A stretch of DNA of 64,000 nt from a virus, in IMG/VR virus record IMGVR_UViG_3300028392_000034, positions 62,001-126,000 of that record; one strand, 5' to 3'. A program made the translations under genes and the position numbers. The notes beneath the pieces were generated by a model, which made no database searches, was not told the DNA's origin, and saw only the letters and a program-made list of their open reading frames with translations. Positions 13,917 to 62,928 of the stretch are shown here, one piece after another. How positions within the stretch are numbered: position 1 is the stretch's first letter; the number at the start of each line of letters is the position of its first letter.

Positions 13917-13942
13917 TACTTATCATTTATCTGGAGACCTTG

Positions 13943-14536
13943 ATGTCAAATTTAGTGCCAATTGTAGTAGAAAAAACCGCCAATGGAGAACGCAGTTACG
14001 ATATATACAGTAGACTCCTGCGTGATAGAATTGTCATGCTGGACACAGATGTTAACGAACACACAGCCAGTTTGGTTGTGGCTCAGATGCTGTTTTTAGA
14101 AAGCGAAGATCCGGACCGGGACATCCTATTTTACATCAACAGTCCAGGCGGTGTAGTCACAGCAGGCATGGCGATTTACGATACCATGCAGTTTATCAAA
14201 CCCGATGTCAGCACAGTTGTCATGGGTCAGGCTTGTAGTATGGGCAGCCTATTGGCACAAGCTGGTGCTGCAGGCAAACGATTAATTTTGCCCAATGCAC
14301 GTCATATGATTCACCAACCATCTGGGGGTGCCAGAGGACAAGCAACAGACATGCTGATTCAAGTTGAAGAGATTCTAGCTATGAAGAAAAATCTAACTGA
14401 GATCTATGTTCGACACAACACAGCCGGCAAAACTTTTGAAGAGCTAACTACAGATATGGAACGAGATAACTTTATGAGTGCCGAACAAGCAGTGGCCTAT
14501 GGTCTTGCAGACAAGATAGTTACCAAGAGAGATTAA
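13943..14536 (+). CDS. clpP: ClpP-like ATP-dependent protease proteolytic subunit
   Basis: This 197-residue protein aligns with ClpP along its full length: [10 protein letters not shown] near 63-72, [10 protein letters not shown] with nucleophile Ser99, RHMIHQP with His124, and [11 protein letters not shown] with Asp175, giving a complete Ser-His-Asp triad. ClpP forms the tetradecameric chamber used with ClpA or ClpX. The propeptide is short or absent. It could join or replace host ClpP subunits; a ClpS gene at base 1 suggests the phage steers this protease. The last base of its TAA is the A of the next ATG. Confidence 0.93.
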
Positions 14537-15780
14537 TGGCCTTATCTGATACTTTTTGTTCAGCTCCGTGGTTCCAAACTAGAATTGATTGGGATGGTCA
14601 TTACAGACCCTGTTGCGGACTAACAGAAAACGCTAGCGAGTTTGAAGGTCGAACCCAATACTCAATAAAAGACACCACCGTGGATGAATGGATGTCTAGC
14701 GAGTATTCACAGTATCTAAGAAAAAATTTAACAGAAGGTATACAGCTAAAAGAATGCAATAATTGTTGGCAAAAAGAAAAACACAATGTCAAAAGTTTTA
14801 GACATGATGCTAACAATATTGTTACTAAAAATCAAAATAGCAATCTTGACAATACCTGGGTCAAACTTTTTGTAGACAAAAATCAAAATTATCAAAATTA
14901 TCAGATAGTATCAGCTGATGTCAAATTGTCAAATGTTTGCAATTTTAGCTGTGCTATGTGTTCGCCATTTAACAGTTCAAAAGTGTATGACAAATGGCAA
15001 TCTAATTTAGATAATAAATTTGTGCAAGAACGTTTACTACAGCAACCAACGTTTTTAAAAGATATTGCATCGACTTATCAAAGTAAACGGGGATATCAAC
15101 ATCTTAAAGATATATTAAAACATCCGTTGAGATATCTTAAAGTGCTTGGCGGCGAACCAACATTAGATAAAGACTTATTTCGTGTAGTAGATCAAGTACC
15201 AATTGACAAGAAATCAAAAATACATATAGAGCTAGTTACCAATGGCAGTCAAGATCTAATAGAAATTTCTAACCGATTACAAGATTACGGATCAGTAAGT
15301 TACACAATCAGCCTTGAAGGCGTTGGAGACATACAAGATTATGTGCGTAAAGGAAGCCACTGGCCTACCATTGAAAAAAATATATTGGCCGCAAAACAGA
15401 ATGGCATACACGTCAATGTTAATTATACTATACAGGCCATGTCGGTGTTAAATTTACATGAATTATTAAAATGGTGTTCCAATAATCAAATACCGATATC
15501 GTTTGGTGTATTAGATTATCCAGGTCATCTTGCTGTGTCAGTATTGCCCAAAAAAATTCGAAACAGTATTGTTGATAATTTACGCAAAAGTTCAGGTGTT
15601 GACGTTATAAATTCTCCAGACAGTACCGATCTATTGTCAATTGATAAGATAATTGAGTTAATTGACACTATCCCGGATCAGTCTGAACTTTACCCAAAAT
15701 TTCTTGAATATGTGGCATGGTTTGATCAGGACTCGATTCAACCGCTACGTGATATACAACCTTTGCTATATTATGTTTAA
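14536..15780 (+). CDS. Radical-SAM protein with N-terminal SPASM/twitch-type cysteines
   Basis: The radical-SAM cluster motif is C135-x3-C139-x2-C142 (NVCNFSCAMC), with KVLGGEPTL as the GGE motif. Before it lies an auxiliary-cluster-like region: C8, C26-C27 (RPCCG) and ECNNCW. It probably cleaves SAM reductively to modify a peptide or another substrate. It is coupled to clpP by one base, yet has lower GC than clpP. It is one of four radical-SAM genes in the window; none has an obvious precursor peptide. Confidence 0.8.
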   Translation: MALSDTFCSAPWFQTRIDWDGHYRPCCGLTENASEFEGRTQYSIKDTTVDEWMSSEYSQYLRKNLTEGIQLKECNNCWQKEKHNVKSFRHDANNIVTKNQNSNLDNTWVKLFVDKNQNYQNYQIVSADVKLSNVCNFSCAMCSPFNSSKVYDKWQSNLDNKFVQERLLQQPTFLKDIASTYQSKRGYQHLKDILKHPLRYLKVLGGEPTLDKDLFRVVDQVPIDKKSKIHIELVTNGSQDLIEISNRLQDYGSVSYTISLEGVGDIQDYVRKGSHWPTIEKNILAAKQNGIHVNVNYTIQAMSVLNLHELLKWCSNNQIPISFGVLDYPGHLAVSVLPKKIRNSIVDNLRKSSGVDVINSPDSTDLLSIDKIIELIDTIPDQSELYPKFLEYVAWFDQDSIQPLRDIQPLLYYV

Positions 15781-15806
15781 GTAATAAAAGTGTAATGCTA
15801 TATCCG

Positions 15807-15813
15807 CTAAATA
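15807..15813 (+). promoter_or_regulatory. Late promoter core (CTAAATA) without a downstream ORF
   Basis: CTAAATA is followed within about 70 nt by an intrinsic terminator and no sense-strand gene, suggesting a short late RNA. Confidence 0.5.
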
Positions 15814-15818
15814 AAAGA

Positions 15819-15884
15819 CCGGGCACAAGATAAGGTGTCGTGGGAATCCGTAATCCACGCTAAAGGACCTACCGGTCCTTTTTC
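15819..15884 (+). ncRNA. Candidate short late RNA ending in a terminator
   Basis: Between the late core at 15807 and the terminator at 15861-15884 lie about 65 nt with a hairpin (CGTGG...CCACG, 15839-15859) and no credible reading frame. The terminator overlaps the 3' end of the convergent glycosyltransferase gene, so the RNA would be antisense to its last codons. Alternatively this is read-through termination for the upstream radical-SAM gene. Confidence 0.4.
15861..15884 (+). terminator. Intrinsic terminator
   Basis: AAAGGACC-TACC-GGTCCTTTTT stem-loop with a T tract, at the end of the clpP/radical-SAM unit or of the short RNA. Confidence 0.75.
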
Positions 15885-16885
15885 TTTGGCGTCACTGGCA
15901 CCAGGTTGTCGCGGAATATCGCCCAGGCACGTTCCCAACTCCAGCGAGCACTACCCGCCCATACCTGTTGTCGATTCAAAAACAAACAATCAGTTACGGC
16001 CTGCCGCAGGTCTGTGTTCATACAGCCGGTAACACCTTCGTCAATGACATCTTCTGGCCCCTGAACAGGATAGGCTGCCACCGGTGTACCACAAGCCATA
16101 GATTCGATCATCACAATGCCAAATGTTTCCCACTGGCTAGGAAATACAAACACTTCAGCATTGGCATAGTAGCGAGCCAATTCTACTCCTGTTTTAAATC
16201 CTGTGAAATGCACATCTGGATATTGCTTACGATAGGTTTCTAGCATGGGTCCATCACCTACCATGATTTTCAAGAAACCCGGATAGTCCATTTCGAGAAA
16301 CTTTTCAAGATTTTTTTCTTTGCTGACACGACTTACGCACAAGATATATCGACTGATAGTTTTTTTTCTATGAGTAGGATTAAACGTTTCACGGTCAACA
16401 CCGCGTGTCCAACTCACAATCTCGCCTTTAAACCCGTGTGATCTTAATTCTTGCACCATTGAATCCGTTGTGGTCAATACTTTGCCTGAGTGTTTGTGGA
16501 ACCAGCGCACCATGGGCCAAGTCACTAGTTCGGGAATGCCAAACAGCTTTTTTAGCCCTTCAGGAAACTTAGTATGATAAGCGGTGTTGTACCTATAACC
16601 ACATATTGAAAGATACTTTCTAGCCCACAAACCAAGAGGACCTTCTGTGGCGATGTGGATATGATCCGGGTCAATTTCTTCAATCTTCTTGCCCATCGCC
16701 CGCGGAATGGCAAGTTTGACTTGGTCGTAGCCAGGACAATCAACATAGCGGAACCGCCCGGGATCAATATAATCAACCCGATAACCATCCAGTACCGCAC
16801 AAGCCTCAATGTTCTTGTAAGTGGTGACCACGCCATTAATCTGATCCGGTAAGTTGTCTGTTATTATCAATATCTTCTTTGTCAT
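15869..16885 (-). CDS. GT4-family glycosyltransferase
   Basis: A 338-residue GT-B glycosyltransferase. The N-terminal domain begins KKILIITDNLPDQINGVV, with the acceptor-side loop typical of GT4 enzymes. The C-terminal domain has SRVSKEKNLEKFLE, VGDGPM and FPSQWETFGIVMIESMACG, the ExFGxxxxEAMA-type nucleotide-sugar motif. It resembles bacterial SQD2/MgtA-like lipid glycosyltransferases. It overlaps the LpxH-like gene by 50 bp, so the two are co-translated, suggesting envelope glycolipid synthesis or remodelling. The donor is unknown. Confidence 0.85.
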   Translation of the reverse strand: MTKKILIITDNLPDQINGVVTTYKNIEACAVLDGYRVDYIDPGRFRYVDCPGYDQVKLAIPRAMGKKIEEIDPDHIHIATEGPLGLWARKYLSICGYRYNTAYHTKFPEGLKKLFGIPELVTWPMVRWFHKHSGKVLTTTDSMVQELRSHGFKGEIVSWTRGVDRETFNPTHRKKTISRYILCVSRVSKEKNLEKFLEMDYPGFLKIMVGDGPMLETYRKQYPDVHFTGFKTGVELARYYANAEVFVFPSQWETFGIVMIESMACGTPVAAYPVQGPEDVIDEGVTGCMNTDLRQAVTDCLFLNRQQVWAGSARWSWERAWAIFRDNLVPVTPKKKDR

Positions 16886-17630
16886 TTTTTTGTGTCCATG
16901 TTACAATCTCCCATGTGCCATCGTGATGTTCTACCAGTGCTGTGCATGATTCAACCCAGTCGCCATCATTCATGTAAGTGACGCCATCTATTTCTTTTAT
17001 TTCTGCGTGGTGTATGTGACCGCAGACCACGCCATCAAATCCTCTTTTCTTACAGTAGGTTGCGAGGTTCCGTTCAAAGTGGAAAATAAAGTCCACTGCC
17101 TTTTTGACCCTATGCTTGAGATACAGGCTAAGACTCCAGTAACCAAAACCCATACGATGGCGGATCCAATTAAATTTGCTATTAAGTCCCAGGATAAAGT
17201 CATATGCTCGGTCTCCTAAAAAGTTCAACCACGGTGCCAATCTTGTGATGCCATCAAACATGTCGCCATGAACCACAAGGTAGTGCCGCCCGTCGGCACC
17301 TATGTGTTCGGTTTGATTTACAATTTCTATCAGTCCAAACGAAAATCCGTAGGGTATCATCGGACGCAAGAATTCGTCATGATTTCCAGATATGTATACG
17401 ACCCTAGTGCCACGTTTAGCGTGACCAAGAATGCGACGAACAACGTTGGTGTGGCTTTGTTTCCATCTCCACCGGTTTTGTTGGATCTTCCAAGCGTCAA
17501 TGATATCTCCCACAAGATACAGGGTATCACAGGTGTTGTGTTTGAGGAAGTTGTTTAGTTCTTCTGCTTTGCAGTCCCTCGTCCCGAGGTGGATGTCTGA
17601 CACAAATATACTGCGATACGTTTTTTGCAT
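16836..17630 (-). CDS. LpxH-like UDP-2,3-diacylglucosamine diphosphatase family phosphoesterase
   Basis: This 264-residue metallophosphoesterase has FVSDIHLGTRD, LVGDIIDAW, SGNHDEFLR, LVVHGDMFD and VCGHIHHAEI in order. The DxHLG start and GNHDE spacing with a helical insertion fit LpxH-type enzymes, which cleave a lipid A precursor's pyrophosphate. In proteobacteria such genes are often next to a GT4 glycosyltransferase, as here. It starts 4 nt after a minus-strand late core (CTAAATA), so the mRNA may be leaderless. Confidence 0.8.
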   Translation of the reverse strand: MQKTYRSIFVSDIHLGTRDCKAEELNNFLKHNTCDTLYLVGDIIDAWKIQQNRWRWKQSHTNVVRRILGHAKRGTRVVYISGNHDEFLRPMIPYGFSFGLIEIVNQTEHIGADGRHYLVVHGDMFDGITRLAPWLNFLGDRAYDFILGLNSKFNWIRHRMGFGYWSLSLYLKHRVKKAVDFIFHFERNLATYCKKRGFDGVVCGHIHHAEIKEIDGVTYMNDGDWVESCTALVEHHDGTWEIVTWTQKNDKEDIDNNRQLTGSD

Positions 17631-17634
17631 CTAG

Positions 17635-17641
17635 TATTTAG
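17635..17641 (-). promoter_or_regulatory. Late promoter core (CTAAATA) with almost no leader
   Basis: CTAAATA on the minus strand ends 4 nt before the ATG at 17630. No Shine-Dalgarno lies between. Confidence 0.55.
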
Positions 17642-17655
17642 GCAGAAATGTGTTA

Positions 17656-18303
17656 CTATTTTGTTACAAACAATTGATCTACAAATTCTAATAGCAGTTG
17701 ATGATGTTGACGATGGTGCCAGTGTGGTCGCATCCACGAATAACCTGTGTACCAAAACTGTTCGCTTTCGGGATGACATCCTATTAGCCCAATCTTGTTT
17801 TGATATATGGCCATTGCATCACCATTGGCATAGGTGGCTACTGTTTCAAATCGATCAGGATCGCCCACTAAGGCACAGCCATCATACCAAAACATTGACA
17901 TGGGTGTTCCTTGCCAAGTTATGGCAATATTTTTGGCATGTGGTCTACGAGTATCGGTTCCAGGTCTAGCAAGATATTGAACAGCATCTACTGAATCTAG
18001 TATATCAAAGTAATTGCTACCGGCCCAGTAGGCACCCATACAGATGCCTAGATAGCGTCCGCCCTGCTGAACAAATTCAGTTACCCTGCGTTGGTTGGCT
18101 TTTAGTAAGGTAGCAAAACTGTCAGCATCACCTATACCACCCGGAAACGCAACCATGCTTACGTCGTCAAAAAACGAGTCTTCAACTGAGTTCTTGCTGA
18201 ACAGTTTAAAACGATAATAATCGCCCAGGGCTTGCATTACGCCATTGCCCGATTGAACCGAACATTTTGGATCTTGAATGAATAATGCTATTGTGGGCTT
18301 CAT
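17656..18303 (-). CDS. BPL_N / class-I glutamine amidotransferase-like protein
   Basis: The 215-residue protein shows a GATase1-like fold: VAFPGGIGDAD, then RYLGICMGAYWAGS with a nucleophile-elbow Cys, and IGCHPESEQFW with a His-Pro-Glu as in the glutaminase triad. It resembles the biotin-protein-ligase N-terminal (BPL_N) group, whose substrates are uncertain. It starts 7 nt after a perfect TATAAATA late core, so it may be leaderless. Confidence 0.7.
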   Translation of the reverse strand: MKPTIALFIQDPKCSVQSGNGVMQALGDYYRFKLFSKNSVEDSFFDDVSMVAFPGGIGDADSFATLLKANQRRVTEFVQQGGRYLGICMGAYWAGSNYFDILDSVDAVQYLARPGTDTRRPHAKNIAITWQGTPMSMFWYDGCALVGDPDRFETVATYANGDAMAIYQNKIGLIGCHPESEQFWYTGYSWMRPHWHHRQHHQLLLEFVDQLFVTK

Positions 18304-19323: not shown

Positions 19324-19676
19324 AAGTATTCCAAGAAACCACAGAGTGGGGCATTCCAGGTGCTAAAAATCACATCTACTTTTTGTCGGATTCAAAGGAC
19401 AAGATGTATGCTTACATCAATAAGGAAGGTCGCATTGACGAAGTAAAGACGCCTTACCGATTCCATATCAAGGGCCGTAAATTTAAAGAAGTTGCCAACA
19501 CCTGGGGATTCTTTCCTAGAGAAGAATTAGAGTCAGTTGGAGAAACTCATCGGGTTGCAGGTAGCAAGGGTTCTGTTTATACAGTTACAAACGATCGTGG
19601 ATCGTGGACTTGCACTTGCCCGGCTTCAAAATGGCAAAAGGGCGACTGCAAACATATCGTGCAGTTAAAAGGTTAA
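19320..19676 (+). CDS. SWIM zinc-finger protein
   Basis: A 118-residue protein ending in WTCTCPASKWQKGDCKHIVQ, the CxCx(n)CxH pattern of SWIM zinc fingers, which bind DNA or protein. The N-terminal part is strand-rich and unrecognised. It overlaps the preceding gene by 4 bp and the convergent radical-SAM gene by 4 bp. It is probably an early regulator or nucleic-acid-binding protein. Confidence 0.7.
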   Translation: MKVFQETTEWGIPGAKNHIYFLSDSKDKMYAYINKEGRIDEVKTPYRFHIKGRKFKEVANTWGFFPREELESVGETHRVAGSKGSVYTVTNDRGSWTCTCPASKWQKGDCKHIVQLKG

Positions 19677-20794
19677 GGTCGGGTTATCAAATGCAAGAAT
19701 TCAGGCCGAGATTTTCTTATGGTTTGATCCAGGTTTGATATACACACCTGCCGCTCACACACAACAGACTGGTTTAAAAACGCAATTTTGGAACCCAGTT
19801 GTCCAATAGGTCCGCCATTCTGACAAGGACCGCGATACACTAGACCGTCGAAATCCAAAAATAAACTGTCTACACCAACAAAACAGCGCCAGCCATGAAA
19901 TTGATTAGCATTGTTGGATACCATAGTATCTGAGTTGGTTTCTGTGTAGTTGAGATCTTGGTCCCAGACGCCGATGTTTTGCCAAGCCGTGGCCGGTATA
20001 TGGGTCGCAAGCCAGTCAAGTTCGTCAGCAGTGTAGAATGTTTCTTCGGCATACACTTGGTAGAGTCGACGATCCAACGTATCTTTTTCTAATTTTTTAT
20101 GTTGTGTTTGTTGTTCTAGGGTGTATACTTGTTTGAGTATTTCCTTTTTGGGTGTAGTTTGCCACTCTTCGTGGGTTTCATTCAACCATGGTCGTATACG
20201 CCTCAGTGTAAATTTTATACCATTTGATTCCAGTATTGGCATCACAACGTTTTCAACAAACTGTAGTTTTCCCGGCGCACACATGACCTGCACACTGATC
20301 CAATGTTCGGGGTATTTGTGATGCAGTTCGATAATTTTATGTAGAGTTGTCTGTGTTTCAGCTTCGGGTTTTTCTAAGTGCAAACTCACAGTTAGGTGAG
20401 TTAGATATTCCAGCGATTGTTTGTATAATTTCAACGGCATAGATCCATTGGTTATTGCCGACAGTTGATCACCAAATGCTGTGGCCTGATGAATTGTTCG
20501 GAGTATCTCCAGTATGTCAGGATGCACAAATGGTTCACCACCGGTTATGCTCATGTTGAATGTTTTGTTCTGCAAAGCAGCCCAGTCATTTACTTGGCCA
20601 ACAAAATTTCTTATGTGATCGATTGGGTGATGTGGGCTTACCCAGTCATGCACATACGGGCTACAATAACTACAATCGTAATTGCACCTCTTGCCTAGAT
20701 TCCAATTGACCAGAACCACTTGAGGTTCAATGTTGTTGGCGTGATGCTCGCTGCGGAGACTACGCAAGGCCACTAGATTTTTTTCCCAAGTCAT
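19673..20794 (-). CDS. Radical-SAM protein
   Basis: The cluster motif C37-x3-C41-x2-C44 (KRCNYDCSYC) is followed by MSITGGEPFVHP, the SAM-binding GGE motif. The C-terminal third has further cysteines (GWRCFVG, GPCQNGG, ERQVCIS) that may bind an auxiliary cluster. It is 373 residues, similar in build to the protein at 61792. No substrate peptide or partner gene is evident, and it is isolated on the minus strand between early genes and the fibre block. Confidence 0.8.
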   Translation of the reverse strand: MTWEKNLVALRSLRSEHHANNIEPQVVLVNWNLGKRCNYDCSYCSPYVHDWVSPHHPIDHIRNFVGQVNDWAALQNKTFNMSITGGEPFVHPDILEILRTIHQATAFGDQLSAITNGSMPLKLYKQSLEYLTHLTVSLHLEKPEAETQTTLHKIIELHHKYPEHWISVQVMCAPGKLQFVENVVMPILESNGIKFTLRRIRPWLNETHEEWQTTPKKEILKQVYTLEQQTQHKKLEKDTLDRRLYQVYAEETFYTADELDWLATHIPATAWQNIGVWDQDLNYTETNSDTMVSNNANQFHGWRCFVGVDSLFLDFDGLVYRGPCQNGGPIGQLGSKIAFLNQSVVCERQVCISNLDQTIRKSRPEFLHLITRP

Positions 20795-46380: not shown

Positions 46381-46886
46381 ACGAGCTCGTCTCTGAGCTT
46401 AACGATACTGTCACAATATCGTTAGACGGCTACTATAAAAAAACCAACGGATGGGCCGATCCACAATATGGTGCTATTCCGCCGTTGACTGTGAGCAATA
46501 TTGATGGCAACATCAACGGAACCACTTACAGCAACATTAGTCTTACCGGAAGTCCGTTTACATTTAGTAATACTGCTGGGCATGTTTGGACCACCGGAAC
46601 TACTAGCCCATACACTGTTAACAGTCCTTACACCATGAATCAAAGTGGTAAAGTTGTTATTCAAGGCGATAATGCCGATCTTGTGATAGGCGAAAAAAGT
46701 ATGCGAGATTGGATGGAACGGGTTGAGGAACGATTGAACATCCTAACACCTAACACCAAATTGGAAGAGGAATGGGAAGAACTCCGTGCTCTGGGCGAAC
46801 AGTATCGTCAACTTGAACAGCACATCAAAGATAAACAGGCCACATGGGACCGTTTGAAGGCCATGCCACCGCCAGTGACAGAGTAA
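46353..46886 (+). CDS. Putative virion-associated protein with coiled-coil end
   Basis: A 177-residue protein. A Thr/Ser/Asn-rich beta middle (DGNINGTTYSNISLTGSPFT) is followed by a helical C-terminus (MRDWMERVEERLNILTPNTK, LEEEWEELRALGEQYRQLEQ), a pattern found in many phages. The helical part probably forms a coiled coil and may be an assembly or fibre-type protein; the exact role is unknown. Confidence 0.55.
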   Translation: MDLTQEKTLDELVSELNDTVTISLDGYYKKTNGWADPQYGAIPPLTVSNIDGNINGTTYSNISLTGSPFTFSNTAGHVWTTGTTSPYTVNSPYTMNQSGKVVIQGDNADLVIGEKSMRDWMERVEERLNILTPNTKLEEEWEELRALGEQYRQLEQHIKDKQATWDRLKAMPPPVTE

Positions 46887-49020: not shown

Positions 49021-49575
49021 ATGCATGTTAGTATAAGACAAGATATTGAATTATTAGAAGCTTCGACTCGGCCAGCCAAGTTGGAAACCACACCTTTGCC
49101 CTACACACACAAGGCGTTGGAGCCTGTAATGAGCCCGGCTACAATTGAATACCATTACGAGCATTTGGCCAAAGGCTATGCCAAACGCTACAATGCGGGT
49201 GAAGGCAATGCAGATTTTAACCGTGCTGGTAGTTTTTTACATAATAAATTTTTTCCACAACTTCGAGAACCCAAAGGAGCTAATCGCCCCAAAGGCGCTG
49301 TGCTAGAACTAATTGAAACCAACTTCGAAACCTACGAAGATTTTAAAGCGGCGTTCAAAGAAGTCGCGATGAAGATTCAAGGATCAGGCTGGGTATATCT
49401 CAGCACCGCGGGCACAATTAAAACCATTCCAAACCATCAGGTTAGGACAGATATTTGTGTGCTAGTGGACTGGTGGGAACACGCATGGAGCCTAGATTAC
49501 CAATGGGACAAAGAGCGTTATCTAGATAACATCTGGAAAATTATTGACTGGAACGTTTGCAACGAAAGAATATGA
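49021..49575 (+). CDS. sod: Superoxide dismutase (Fe/Mn type)
   Basis: A 184-residue SOD. Metal ligands: His45 (TIEYHYEH), His74 (FLHNKFF), Asp150 and His154 (DWWEHAW), plus Tyr53 in the gateway position and GSGWVYLS. The Gln at the FeSOD position near 69 is replaced by Gly70, while His139-Gln140 lie near the MnSOD Gln, which suggests Mn or cambialistic use; that is a guess. The second-shell His of Fe-SODs is replaced by Leu49. It dismutes superoxide. ATGA overlap with the next gene. Confidence 0.9.
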
Positions 49576-61791: not shown

Positions 61792-62928
61792 ATGCCGGCA
61801 TATGAGGTTCTTGAACCTGCAATAGATCCCAACAATAGAATCTCTTTTCTATTGGATTGGGAACTCACAATGAAGTGTAATCTTGATTGTAGTTATTGTG
61901 ACTCAGGATTAAACGGAGGACACGATAACTCTACCAAACATCCTCCAAAAGACAAATGTATCCAAGCTCTAGAGTTTATGTTTGAATATGCGGATCAATA
62001 CATGCAATTCAAGCCTAATGGACTACGGTATGTTGTGCTCAATGTGTATGGTGGAGAAAGTTTACACCACCCTGATATAGTAGAAATATTATCTCAAATA
62101 CAACAAAAATATCAACCATACGCAGACCGTTGGAAATTAACAGTTACTACAACAACCAATGCCATAATATCCGATAAAAAATTATCAAAAATAATTCCTT
62201 ATATTGATGAATTCACCGTGAGTTCTCATGTGGAATGTACCGACCGTCAAAAACAACAGTTTAAACACAATCTATTGTCTATTAGAGACTCGGGTAAGAG
62301 ATTAAAATGTATTGTGATGCTGCATGATAATCCGCAACTATTTCAACAATCTCAAGATTTTTTATTATGGCTTGATGAAAATCAAATACGCTCATTGCCC
62401 AAACAAATCGACGGCGCCAGTTTAAATCAATCGTATGATCAACAACAAATAAAATGGTTTAATTCAATATATCAAAATAAAACATACGGAACAAAAATCT
62501 TTGAAATTATCAATACTGATGTTGGTGCGTCTTCCAATCTCAGTCAGGTCGGACGAGCCTGTTGTGGCGGCAGACAAAGTTGTCTAGATCAGAATTACAA
62601 GGAACGCCACTATTACGTTCTCGATAATAAATTTCCAGACTGGTATTGTAGTGTGAATCAATTTTTTCTTTTTATCAAACAGGTCAATGGAGAAGTATAT
62701 GTCAATAAAGATTGCAAAATGACATTTGATGGAACCGTTGGGCCAATTGGAAATTTAGATGAGCCTGACAAAATCATCAACCAACTAAAAACACAACTAA
62801 ATAACGGACAGCCTGTAATACAATGTAAAATACCCGTATGTCGTTGTGGTCTTTGCGCTCCTAAAGCGAAAAATCTAGACACATATCATTCAATCATAAA
62901 AAAATATCAAAAAAATCACATCACATGA
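61792..62928 (+). CDS. Radical-SAM protein
   Basis: The motif C29-x3-C33-x2-C36 (MKCNLDCSYC) and NVYGGESLHHP identify the family. Extra Cys motifs near the C-terminus (RACCGGRQSC, WYCSVNQ, CKMTF, CKIPVCRCGLC) suggest a SPASM/twitch auxiliary cluster. 378 residues. It starts 2 nt after the clamp loader stop and overlaps the next gene by 4 bp. It resembles the minus-strand radical-SAM protein at 19673 in layout. Confidence 0.8.
   Translation: MPAYEVLEPAIDPNNRISFLLDWELTMKCNLDCSYCDSGLNGGHDNSTKHPPKDKCIQALEFMFEYADQYMQFKPNGLRYVVLNVYGGESLHHPDIVEILSQIQQKYQPYADRWKLTVTTTTNAIISDKKLSKIIPYIDEFTVSSHVECTDRQKQQFKHNLLSIRDSGKRLKCIVMLHDNPQLFQQSQDFLLWLDENQIRSLPKQIDGASLNQSYDQQQIKWFNSIYQNKTYGTKIFEIINTDVGASSNLSQVGRACCGGRQSCLDQNYKERHYYVLDNKFPDWYCSVNQFFLFIKQVNGEVYVNKDCKMTFDGTVGPIGNLDEPDKIINQLKTQLNNGQPVIQCKIPVCRCGLCAPKAKNLDTYHSIIKKYQKNHIT

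Follow-up and report, generated by a model that had tools for sequence, protein, structure and literature searches.

A phage gene pair of the PlcP and Agt families behind a PhoB-box-like site and a late-type TAAATA core, with a probable role in membrane lipid remodelling under phosphate starvation

What would a phage gain from two overlapping genes, coding for a metallophosphoesterase and a GT4 glycosyltransferase (GT), that are set behind a late-type TAAATA core? The question is raised by a 64,000-nt stretch of DNA (here called the window), which is part of a 148,970-base IMG/VR virus record (IMGVR_UViG_3300028392_000034). This record belongs to a phage, since it encodes elsewhere a terminase large subunit, a ribonucleotide reductase, a DNA ligase and virion proteins, and also matches T4-type terminase, UvsW and clamp loader. 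Both genes are on the minus strand: plcP (16836..17630, ATG start, 264 aa) codes for the phosphoesterase (Pfam Metallophos, 43.4 bits for a cut-off of 21.5) and agt (15869..16885, ATG start, 338 aa) for the GT (Pfam Glycos_transf_1, 84.4 bits for a cut-off of 26.4). The two open reading frames (ORFs) overlap by 50 bp (16836..16885), as an earlier note on this DNA had described without naming a strand. The families of the two genes and their pairing as PlcP and Agt can be assigned from sequence with high confidence, and the operon is likely a phage-borne PlcP-Agt lipid remodelling system, by which membrane phosphorus would be stripped late in infection of phosphate-starved hosts.

Sequence comparison identifies the first gene product as a PlcP, the predicted phospholipase C of phosphate-starvation lipid remodelling, whose substrate is most likely membrane phospholipid and not UDP-diacylglucosamine. 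It could be argued instead that it is an LpxH-type lipid A enzyme, acting with a lipopolysaccharide (LPS) glycosyltransferase to modify lipid A or LPS in the late phase of infection, because both families share the metallophosphoesterase fold and its metal-ligand motifs and because databases label the phosphoesterase family 'UDP-2,3-diacylglucosamine diphosphatase'. The top 10 PDB fold matches of the predicted structure (predicted local distance difference test, pLDDT, of 80) are indeed LpxH, with template modelling (TM) scores of about 0.55, a result that does not discriminate between PlcP and LpxH. Against LpxH, the two LpxH equivalog models of NCBIfam give only 44.0 and 33.6 bits, below their cut-offs of 134 and 190.35, and the alignment with E. 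coli LpxH shows about 20% identity. GNHD is invariant in 39 aligned PlcP proteins, where 7/7 LpxH rows have GNRDF, and WVES (of the motif GDWVES) is found in 82/85 PlcP rows and in 0/7 LpxH rows. The branch dividing PlcP from LpxH in a tree of 92 rows received 100% support (Shimodaira-Hasegawa-like approximate likelihood ratio test, SH-aLRT, quick method). The 39-protein alignment also contains seven invariant residues (D12, H14, D42, N83, H121, H205 and H207), which we take to be the metal ligands of the metallophosphoesterase fold. Five of ten bacterial genomes with a close relative have a true LpxH, scoring above the cut-off; in four of these five the PlcP relative is located elsewhere and receives 31.9-45 bits from the same LpxH model. 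Together with the phosphate-type promoter common to pstS (see below), these results make an LpxH-type enzyme very improbable. The earlier note, which called the enzyme LpxH-like, had named beforehand the absence of LpxH residues on alignment as a reason to abandon that name, and these residues are absent.

The phage PlcP shares 57.7% identity over 91% with a plasmid-borne protein of the PA3219 type from P. aeruginosa, which directly precedes a GT and has an adenylate cyclase gene close by, and 48.6% with an S. meliloti protein that is the sole match in a replicon of chromosome size. Because of the species, the gene order and their mutual identity of 47%, these anchors probably correspond to PA3219 and S. 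meliloti PlcP, for which an identity of 46% is given in PMC8528852. According to the same source, PA3219 and PA3218 make a glycolipid under phosphate stress, as shown via mutants and expression, and the role of plcP has been shown by deletion in Phaeobacter (PMC4796936). Relatives of plcP with an adjacent GT are present on three P. aeruginosa plasmids (NZ_CP137508.1, CP075839.1 and NZ_CP042268.1; H24-H26) and are apparently of chromosomal origin. Another PlcP relative (48.5%) is encoded by Pelagibacter phage Mosig EXVC030M (MT647606), where it is annotated as UDP-2,3-diacylglucosamine hydrolase. Viral 'lpxH' genes have been filed under lipopolysaccharide synthesis (in PMC9611531 and PMC10653327), and some of the published ones may be PlcP.

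The second gene codes for an Agt-type GT, expected from its relatives to build a glycolipid from the diacylglycerol that PlcP would release. Its identity is 38.5% with a P. aeruginosa Agt1-type GT, 42% with a SAR11 Agt-type GT encoded directly 3' of plcP in a Pelagibacteraceae genome, and 38-45% with GTs adjoining bacterial plcP; a published Agt set has 46-58% identity within itself and less than 25% to other GT4 enzymes (PMC8231724). In a 58-row tree, with only two other GT4s as the outgroup, the viral GTs group in a single clade (97%) next to the SAR11 and bacterial Agts and apart from these two, a placement that supports the lipid-type GT4 proposed in the earlier note. The function of SAR11 agt was shown through expression in E. 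coli (PMC4796936). The critical residues of SAR11 Agt that could be mapped are kept in the phage enzyme (His104, Thr160, Arg161, Arg186, Lys191, Glu261 and Trp317, in window numbering) except for one. The catalytic Asp256 is replaced by Glu253, so that the His104-Asp256 dyad is not reproduced, and this is a feature of the whole clade: Glu is found at this position in 47/48 and 80/80 window-clade GTs (overlapping sets), Asp in 41/42 bacterial GTs and 41/44 Mosig-group viral GTs, and WETFG replaces TDTFG in nearly all window-clade GTs. The D256E change in SAR11 Agt caused a loss of more than 90% of the activity, as reported in PMC8231724. Both the clade-wide Glu and this loss weigh against a standard Agt reaction; donor, acceptor or rate may therefore differ, and the protein is better classed as an Agt-clade variant than as a proven diacylglycerol glycosyltransferase. 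The substitution is our main ground for caution about the product. It could mean that the enzyme has come to use a different donor or acceptor (making, for instance, a glycolipid specific to the phage or modifying a non-lipid target), its product being neither monoglucosyldiacylglycerol (MGDG) nor glucuronic acid diacylglycerol (GADG). This is distinctly unlikely given the other critical residues and the clade placement, and also because the GT4 enzyme MshA has Glu at the same place (PMC8231724).

A phosphoesterase relative is encoded in 486/491 candidate IMG/VR stretches, a relative of the Mosig version in 110/110 and a GT relative in 323/328. The best 80 viral loci of each search (window phosphoesterase, Mosig version and window GT) were examined, and adjacent same-strand plcP-GT pairs were found in 47/80, 45/80 and 65/80, respectively, and in 43/80 bacterial plcP loci. 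Among the 80 phosphoesterase loci, 52 have a GT within the stretch, 47 have it adjoining on the same strand, and 17 of these 47 pairs show the identical 50-bp overlap; the 28/80 loci without a GT, which are in part truncated, count against a PlcP-Agt pathway. The counts over viral loci are of related sequences and some searches share contigs, so that shuffles and Fisher tests make the loci look more independent than they are. A PlcP relative is present in only 5 of 50,697 named phage records and a close Agt in none (the best-ranked match has 27.7% identity). In the marine phage Mosig, unlike the window phage, no Agt was detected next to plcP or elsewhere in the 10.7 kb that surround it, and the Mosig host HTCC1062 is described as lacking plcP (PMC4796936). 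Viral PlcPs and Agts cluster apart from the bacterial ones, with the exception of two contigs in the PlcP tree, and thus look like old phage lineages and not like a recent pick-up. These two are contigs of bacterial metagenome-assembled genomes (MAGs; L093 and L094, Hyphomonas and Hellea) with a PlcP inside the viral clade, either through mis-binned phage or through transfer. The resemblance to a proteobacterial gene pair for envelope lipids, which the earlier note had suggested, is borne out. No report of a phage-encoded PlcP or Agt was found in the literature searched, judged by titles and abstracts.

How the pair is expressed is indicated by its upstream region, which reads TGTAACAAAATAGTAACA (a PhoB-box-like site with a direct repeat of period 11, 17651..17668, minus strand), 10 nt, TAAATA (17635..17640, minus strand), 4 nt and the ATG (17630). 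The late core that had been noticed 4 nt before the ATG is present, at 17640-17635, but a promoter consisting of this core only, as first read, is an incomplete description and was dropped, because a PhoB box is found at a fixed spacing of 10 nt from it. The box was scored with a matrix made from 59 E. coli ChIP-seq (chromatin immunoprecipitation sequencing) sites taken from PMC10294691. It reached 14.2 (the median of the 59 E. coli sites is 14.0), rank 2 on both strands of the 148,970-base record; rank 1 is at window position 46398 (+). A weight matrix trained on phage sequences was discarded, as the window's own promoter was in its training set, and the E. coli matrix is independent of it.

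The same arrangement recurs in the relatives. Seven-base repeats at period 11 are present in 56% of 68 distinct upstream regions versus 8% in shuffles, and among periods 8-15 only 11 stands out. Scores above the random 99th percentile were obtained in 41/68 regions, 34 of these 41 having the box at -38 or -49, one repeat apart, and TAAATA accompanies the box in 40/41 regions that have it versus 4/27 that do not. Over all the viral loci, the gap between box and TAAATA is 10 (77 cases), 20 (45) or 21 (21), with almost nothing at other gaps: TAAATA counts are 81 for gaps 9-11, 67 for gaps 19-22 and 11 for all other gaps from 0 to 39, and six column-permuted matrices lose these peaks (0-1, 0-2 and 0-7, respectively). 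Other ORFs in these loci rarely have a box (24/1,114), and the 6 with box and TAAATA are all an amidotransferase-like gene upstream of plcP. The same box and TAAATA promoter precedes phage pstS, whose products were above the equivalog cut-offs in 4/4 tested proteins and which is present in 12/80 window-type and 2/80 Mosig-type loci. A PhoB-type box in a promoter common to pstS points to phosphate stress and not to constitutive exclusion, and plcP-agt is quite probably gated by host PhoB under phosphate starvation. Three points count against this: 27/68 upstream regions have no box, a PstS match was not found in the window's own 148,970-base record, and predicted Pho boxes in phages are unreliable according to a warning in PMC10976474.

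TAAATA could also be the -10 element of host sigma70, in which case these would be ordinary host-type Pho promoters; the spacing of box and -10, which resembles that of Pho promoters, would fit, and so would the lack of a detected late sigma in this record. A comparison with Burkholderiales pstS upstream regions (30 loci fetched, of which 3 were without the signature, leaving 27 regions) argues against it, since TANNNT follows the best box at gap 9 in 24/27 of them versus 2/114 phage boxes, which have TAAATA at gap 10 in 50/114. Only 5/27 Burkholderiales boxes score above the random 99% level for the loci they come from, so that single boxes are weak evidence and the common spacing is the argument. 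The sigma70 -10 element spans -12 to -7. The T4 late box has 8 bp and starts at -13 (PMC2988020), a register that would put TAAATA at -11 to -6; the one-base shift is thus that of the T4 late box, and the distance from PhoB box to start would be the same as with a sigma70 element. In addition, TAAATA precedes many other ORFs of the record, virion genes among them, as it does genome-wide in T4, where late promoters (TATAAATA, gp55/gp33/gp45) are described as having no conserved -35 sequence (PMC2988020). Considering the register and the virion genes, the PhoB box, at -35, seems to be placed where T4 late promoters lack conserved sequence. The host-type reading of TAAATA is for these reasons rather doubtful.

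Some observations are nevertheless unfavourable to a T4-type promoter. plcP has CCTAAATA and not the full T4 late TATAAATA, only TAAATA being constant across promoters. A gp55-type late sigma (phrog_234) is encoded in 3 of the 10 records searched for it, among them the L034 and L025 contigs; in the window's record none was found by tblastn and profile searches, which divergent members could escape. Furthermore, gp55 is without the part of sigma regarded as the contact site of PhoB. The description in PMC2988020 agrees with this, the equivalent of region 4 being missing from gp55. If the T4 register holds, transcription would start within about 1 base of the plcP ATG, giving a leaderless or nearly leaderless message. 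TAAATA is located 10-13 nt before the ATG at several genes of the record (window positions 49021, 18303 and 17630, L086 6881 and L088 17819, for example), which suggests leaderless late messages at such genes.

Other elements near the pair have the same kind of promoter, in the window or in relatives. A class-I glutamine-amidotransferase-like gene (17656..18303, minus strand) is located directly upstream of plcP; its promoter in the window has TATAAATA and no strong PhoB box, and in six relatives (L003, L004 and L006-L009, about 5.3 kb) the gene is preceded by a strong box and TAAATA. At the other end of the operon, a second PhoB-box-like site (15780..15797, plus strand; third in the record, with a matrix score of 13.8) is followed after 10 nt by TAAATA (15808-15813), pointing toward the 3' end of agt. 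Behind it, flanked by a radical-SAM ORF on one side and the end of agt on the other, there is a structured RNA (15819..15883, plus strand) composed of two covarying hairpins and an intrinsic terminator. In an alignment of 31 sequences, 96.8% of the cells are paired and there are 39 double changes, versus 12 in shuffles; this two-hairpin RNA is a new element outside Rfam, where it had no match. An RNA model, built from many of the same viral loci that it matches, recognises the window, 30/80 window-type viral loci (all 30 have it on the strand of plcP, whereas the window has it on the opposite one) and 3/82 further phage loci; it matched 0/80 bacterial plcP loci and 0/200 Burkholderiales genomes, the latter being a weak negative for want of a positive control. 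In the relatives (L003-L009, L043, L056, L071, L267, L298 and L346-L363), the RNA is often found in the interval from pstS to plcP or immediately upstream of plcP, and frequently after a PhoB box and TAAATA. A loop-loop contact seen by eye was discarded, as the loop letters do not covary. These promoters may constitute a phage Pho regulon based on a composite promoter of a new kind, with a host PhoB box occupying the -35 position that is empty in T4-type late promoters, so that late transcription of plcP-agt, pstS, the amidotransferase-like gene and the RNA would be gated by the phosphate-starvation signal of the host, a proposal for which we see the evidence as evenly balanced.

Regarding the host, a permuted betaproteobacterial-type transfer-messenger RNA (tmRNA) was detected near plcP by ARAGORN in four relatives (L022, L027, L065 and L079) and by Rfam in L049; the tags of the relatives are ANDELYALAA/ANDELYSLAA, and no tmRNA was found in the 64,000-nt window. 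The PstS of these phages reaches 72% identity with that of Burkholderiales. The tmRNA type and this identity indicate Betaproteobacteria as hosts of those relatives, and by extension from them a betaproteobacterial host is suggested for the window phage.

From the observed families, their pairing, the promoter architecture and its sharing with pstS, we infer the following course of events. In a phosphate-starved host, phosphorylated host PhoB would bind the box at 17651-17668, and polymerase at the TAAATA core, together with PhoB, would produce a near-leaderless plcP-agt transcript late in infection. PlcP would strip the phosphate-bearing head groups off membrane phospholipids, leaving diacylglycerol, to which Agt would add a sugar from a UDP-sugar, so that the bilayer would be rebuilt with a phosphorus-free glycolipid and the freed phosphorus could enter phage nucleic acid. 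The idea that the phage alters envelope lipids late in infection, put forward in the earlier note, thus survives as a glycolipid route, without the alteration of lipid A and with phosphorus release as the proposed purpose.

Phosphorus gain as the main benefit seems to us somewhat favoured, and no more than that in view of the low yield: Phaeobacter MED193 releases about 0.27 million P atoms on losing half of its phospholipid (PMC4796936) and one 148,970-bp genome contains 297,940 P, so that the released phosphorus is approximately that of one phage genome and the membrane may pay for few virions only. This weighs against the proposed benefit, and its main rival is an effect on the envelope, in which the PlcP-Agt chemistry would be right and the change of lipids would modify receptors, block superinfection or tune lysis. 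Besides the modest phosphorus yield, a late-type core, a GT adjoining PlcP in most pairs and unpublished evidence, mentioned in PMC9804370, that lipid remodelling alters phage adsorption would all agree with such an effect. At odds with it are the PhoB-type box and the link to pstS, a gene for phosphate uptake that co-occurs with the pair and has the same promoter, and also Mosig, which has plcP with no Agt detected and a putative phosphate transporter gene next door; we consider an envelope effect unlikely as the main benefit. Blocked re-adsorption, which the earlier note offered as an example, may occur as a side effect.

Elsewhere in the window there is a full ClpP protease (13940-14536, plus strand; Pfam 260.7 bits), and the same phage also encodes a large protein of the 'ATP-dependent protease' type (770 bits with phrog_4871; L090 14130-16403, record position 140130-142403); the two are possibly parts of a phage Clp machine. 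Three radical-SAM-type proteins are also encoded in the window (14536-15780, plus; 19673-20794, minus; and 61792-62928, plus).

To our knowledge, the viral strategies for phosphate (PstS uptake and DNA recycling) leave out host membrane phospholipid. Pho-responsive genes of cyanophages are reportedly the subject of work by Zeng and Chisholm in 2012. Like those genes (pstS and others; PMC10976474), the pair described here would read host phosphate via host PhoB. The cyanophage genes, as that source presents them, code for PstS and for replication and have a cyanobacterial box, whereas here membrane remodelling genes have an enterobacterial-type box at a fixed spacing to a late-type core. The bacterial PlcP-Agt systems (S. 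meliloti, Phaeobacter MED193, SAR11 HTCC7211 and P. aeruginosa PA3219-PA3218) have the same two families in the same order, overlapping or abutting genes and a Pho-box promoter; the phage genes differ from them in forming separate clades, in the Glu at the catalytic Asp of the GT and in having a late-type TAAATA core where the bacterial promoters have a sigma70 -10. The composite promoter raises the question of whether activation by PhoB is possible when the sigma of the polymerase has no region 4. If the proposed mechanism is true, phages would dismantle the membrane phospholipids of their hosts for phosphorus, cued by the host's own phosphate sensor.

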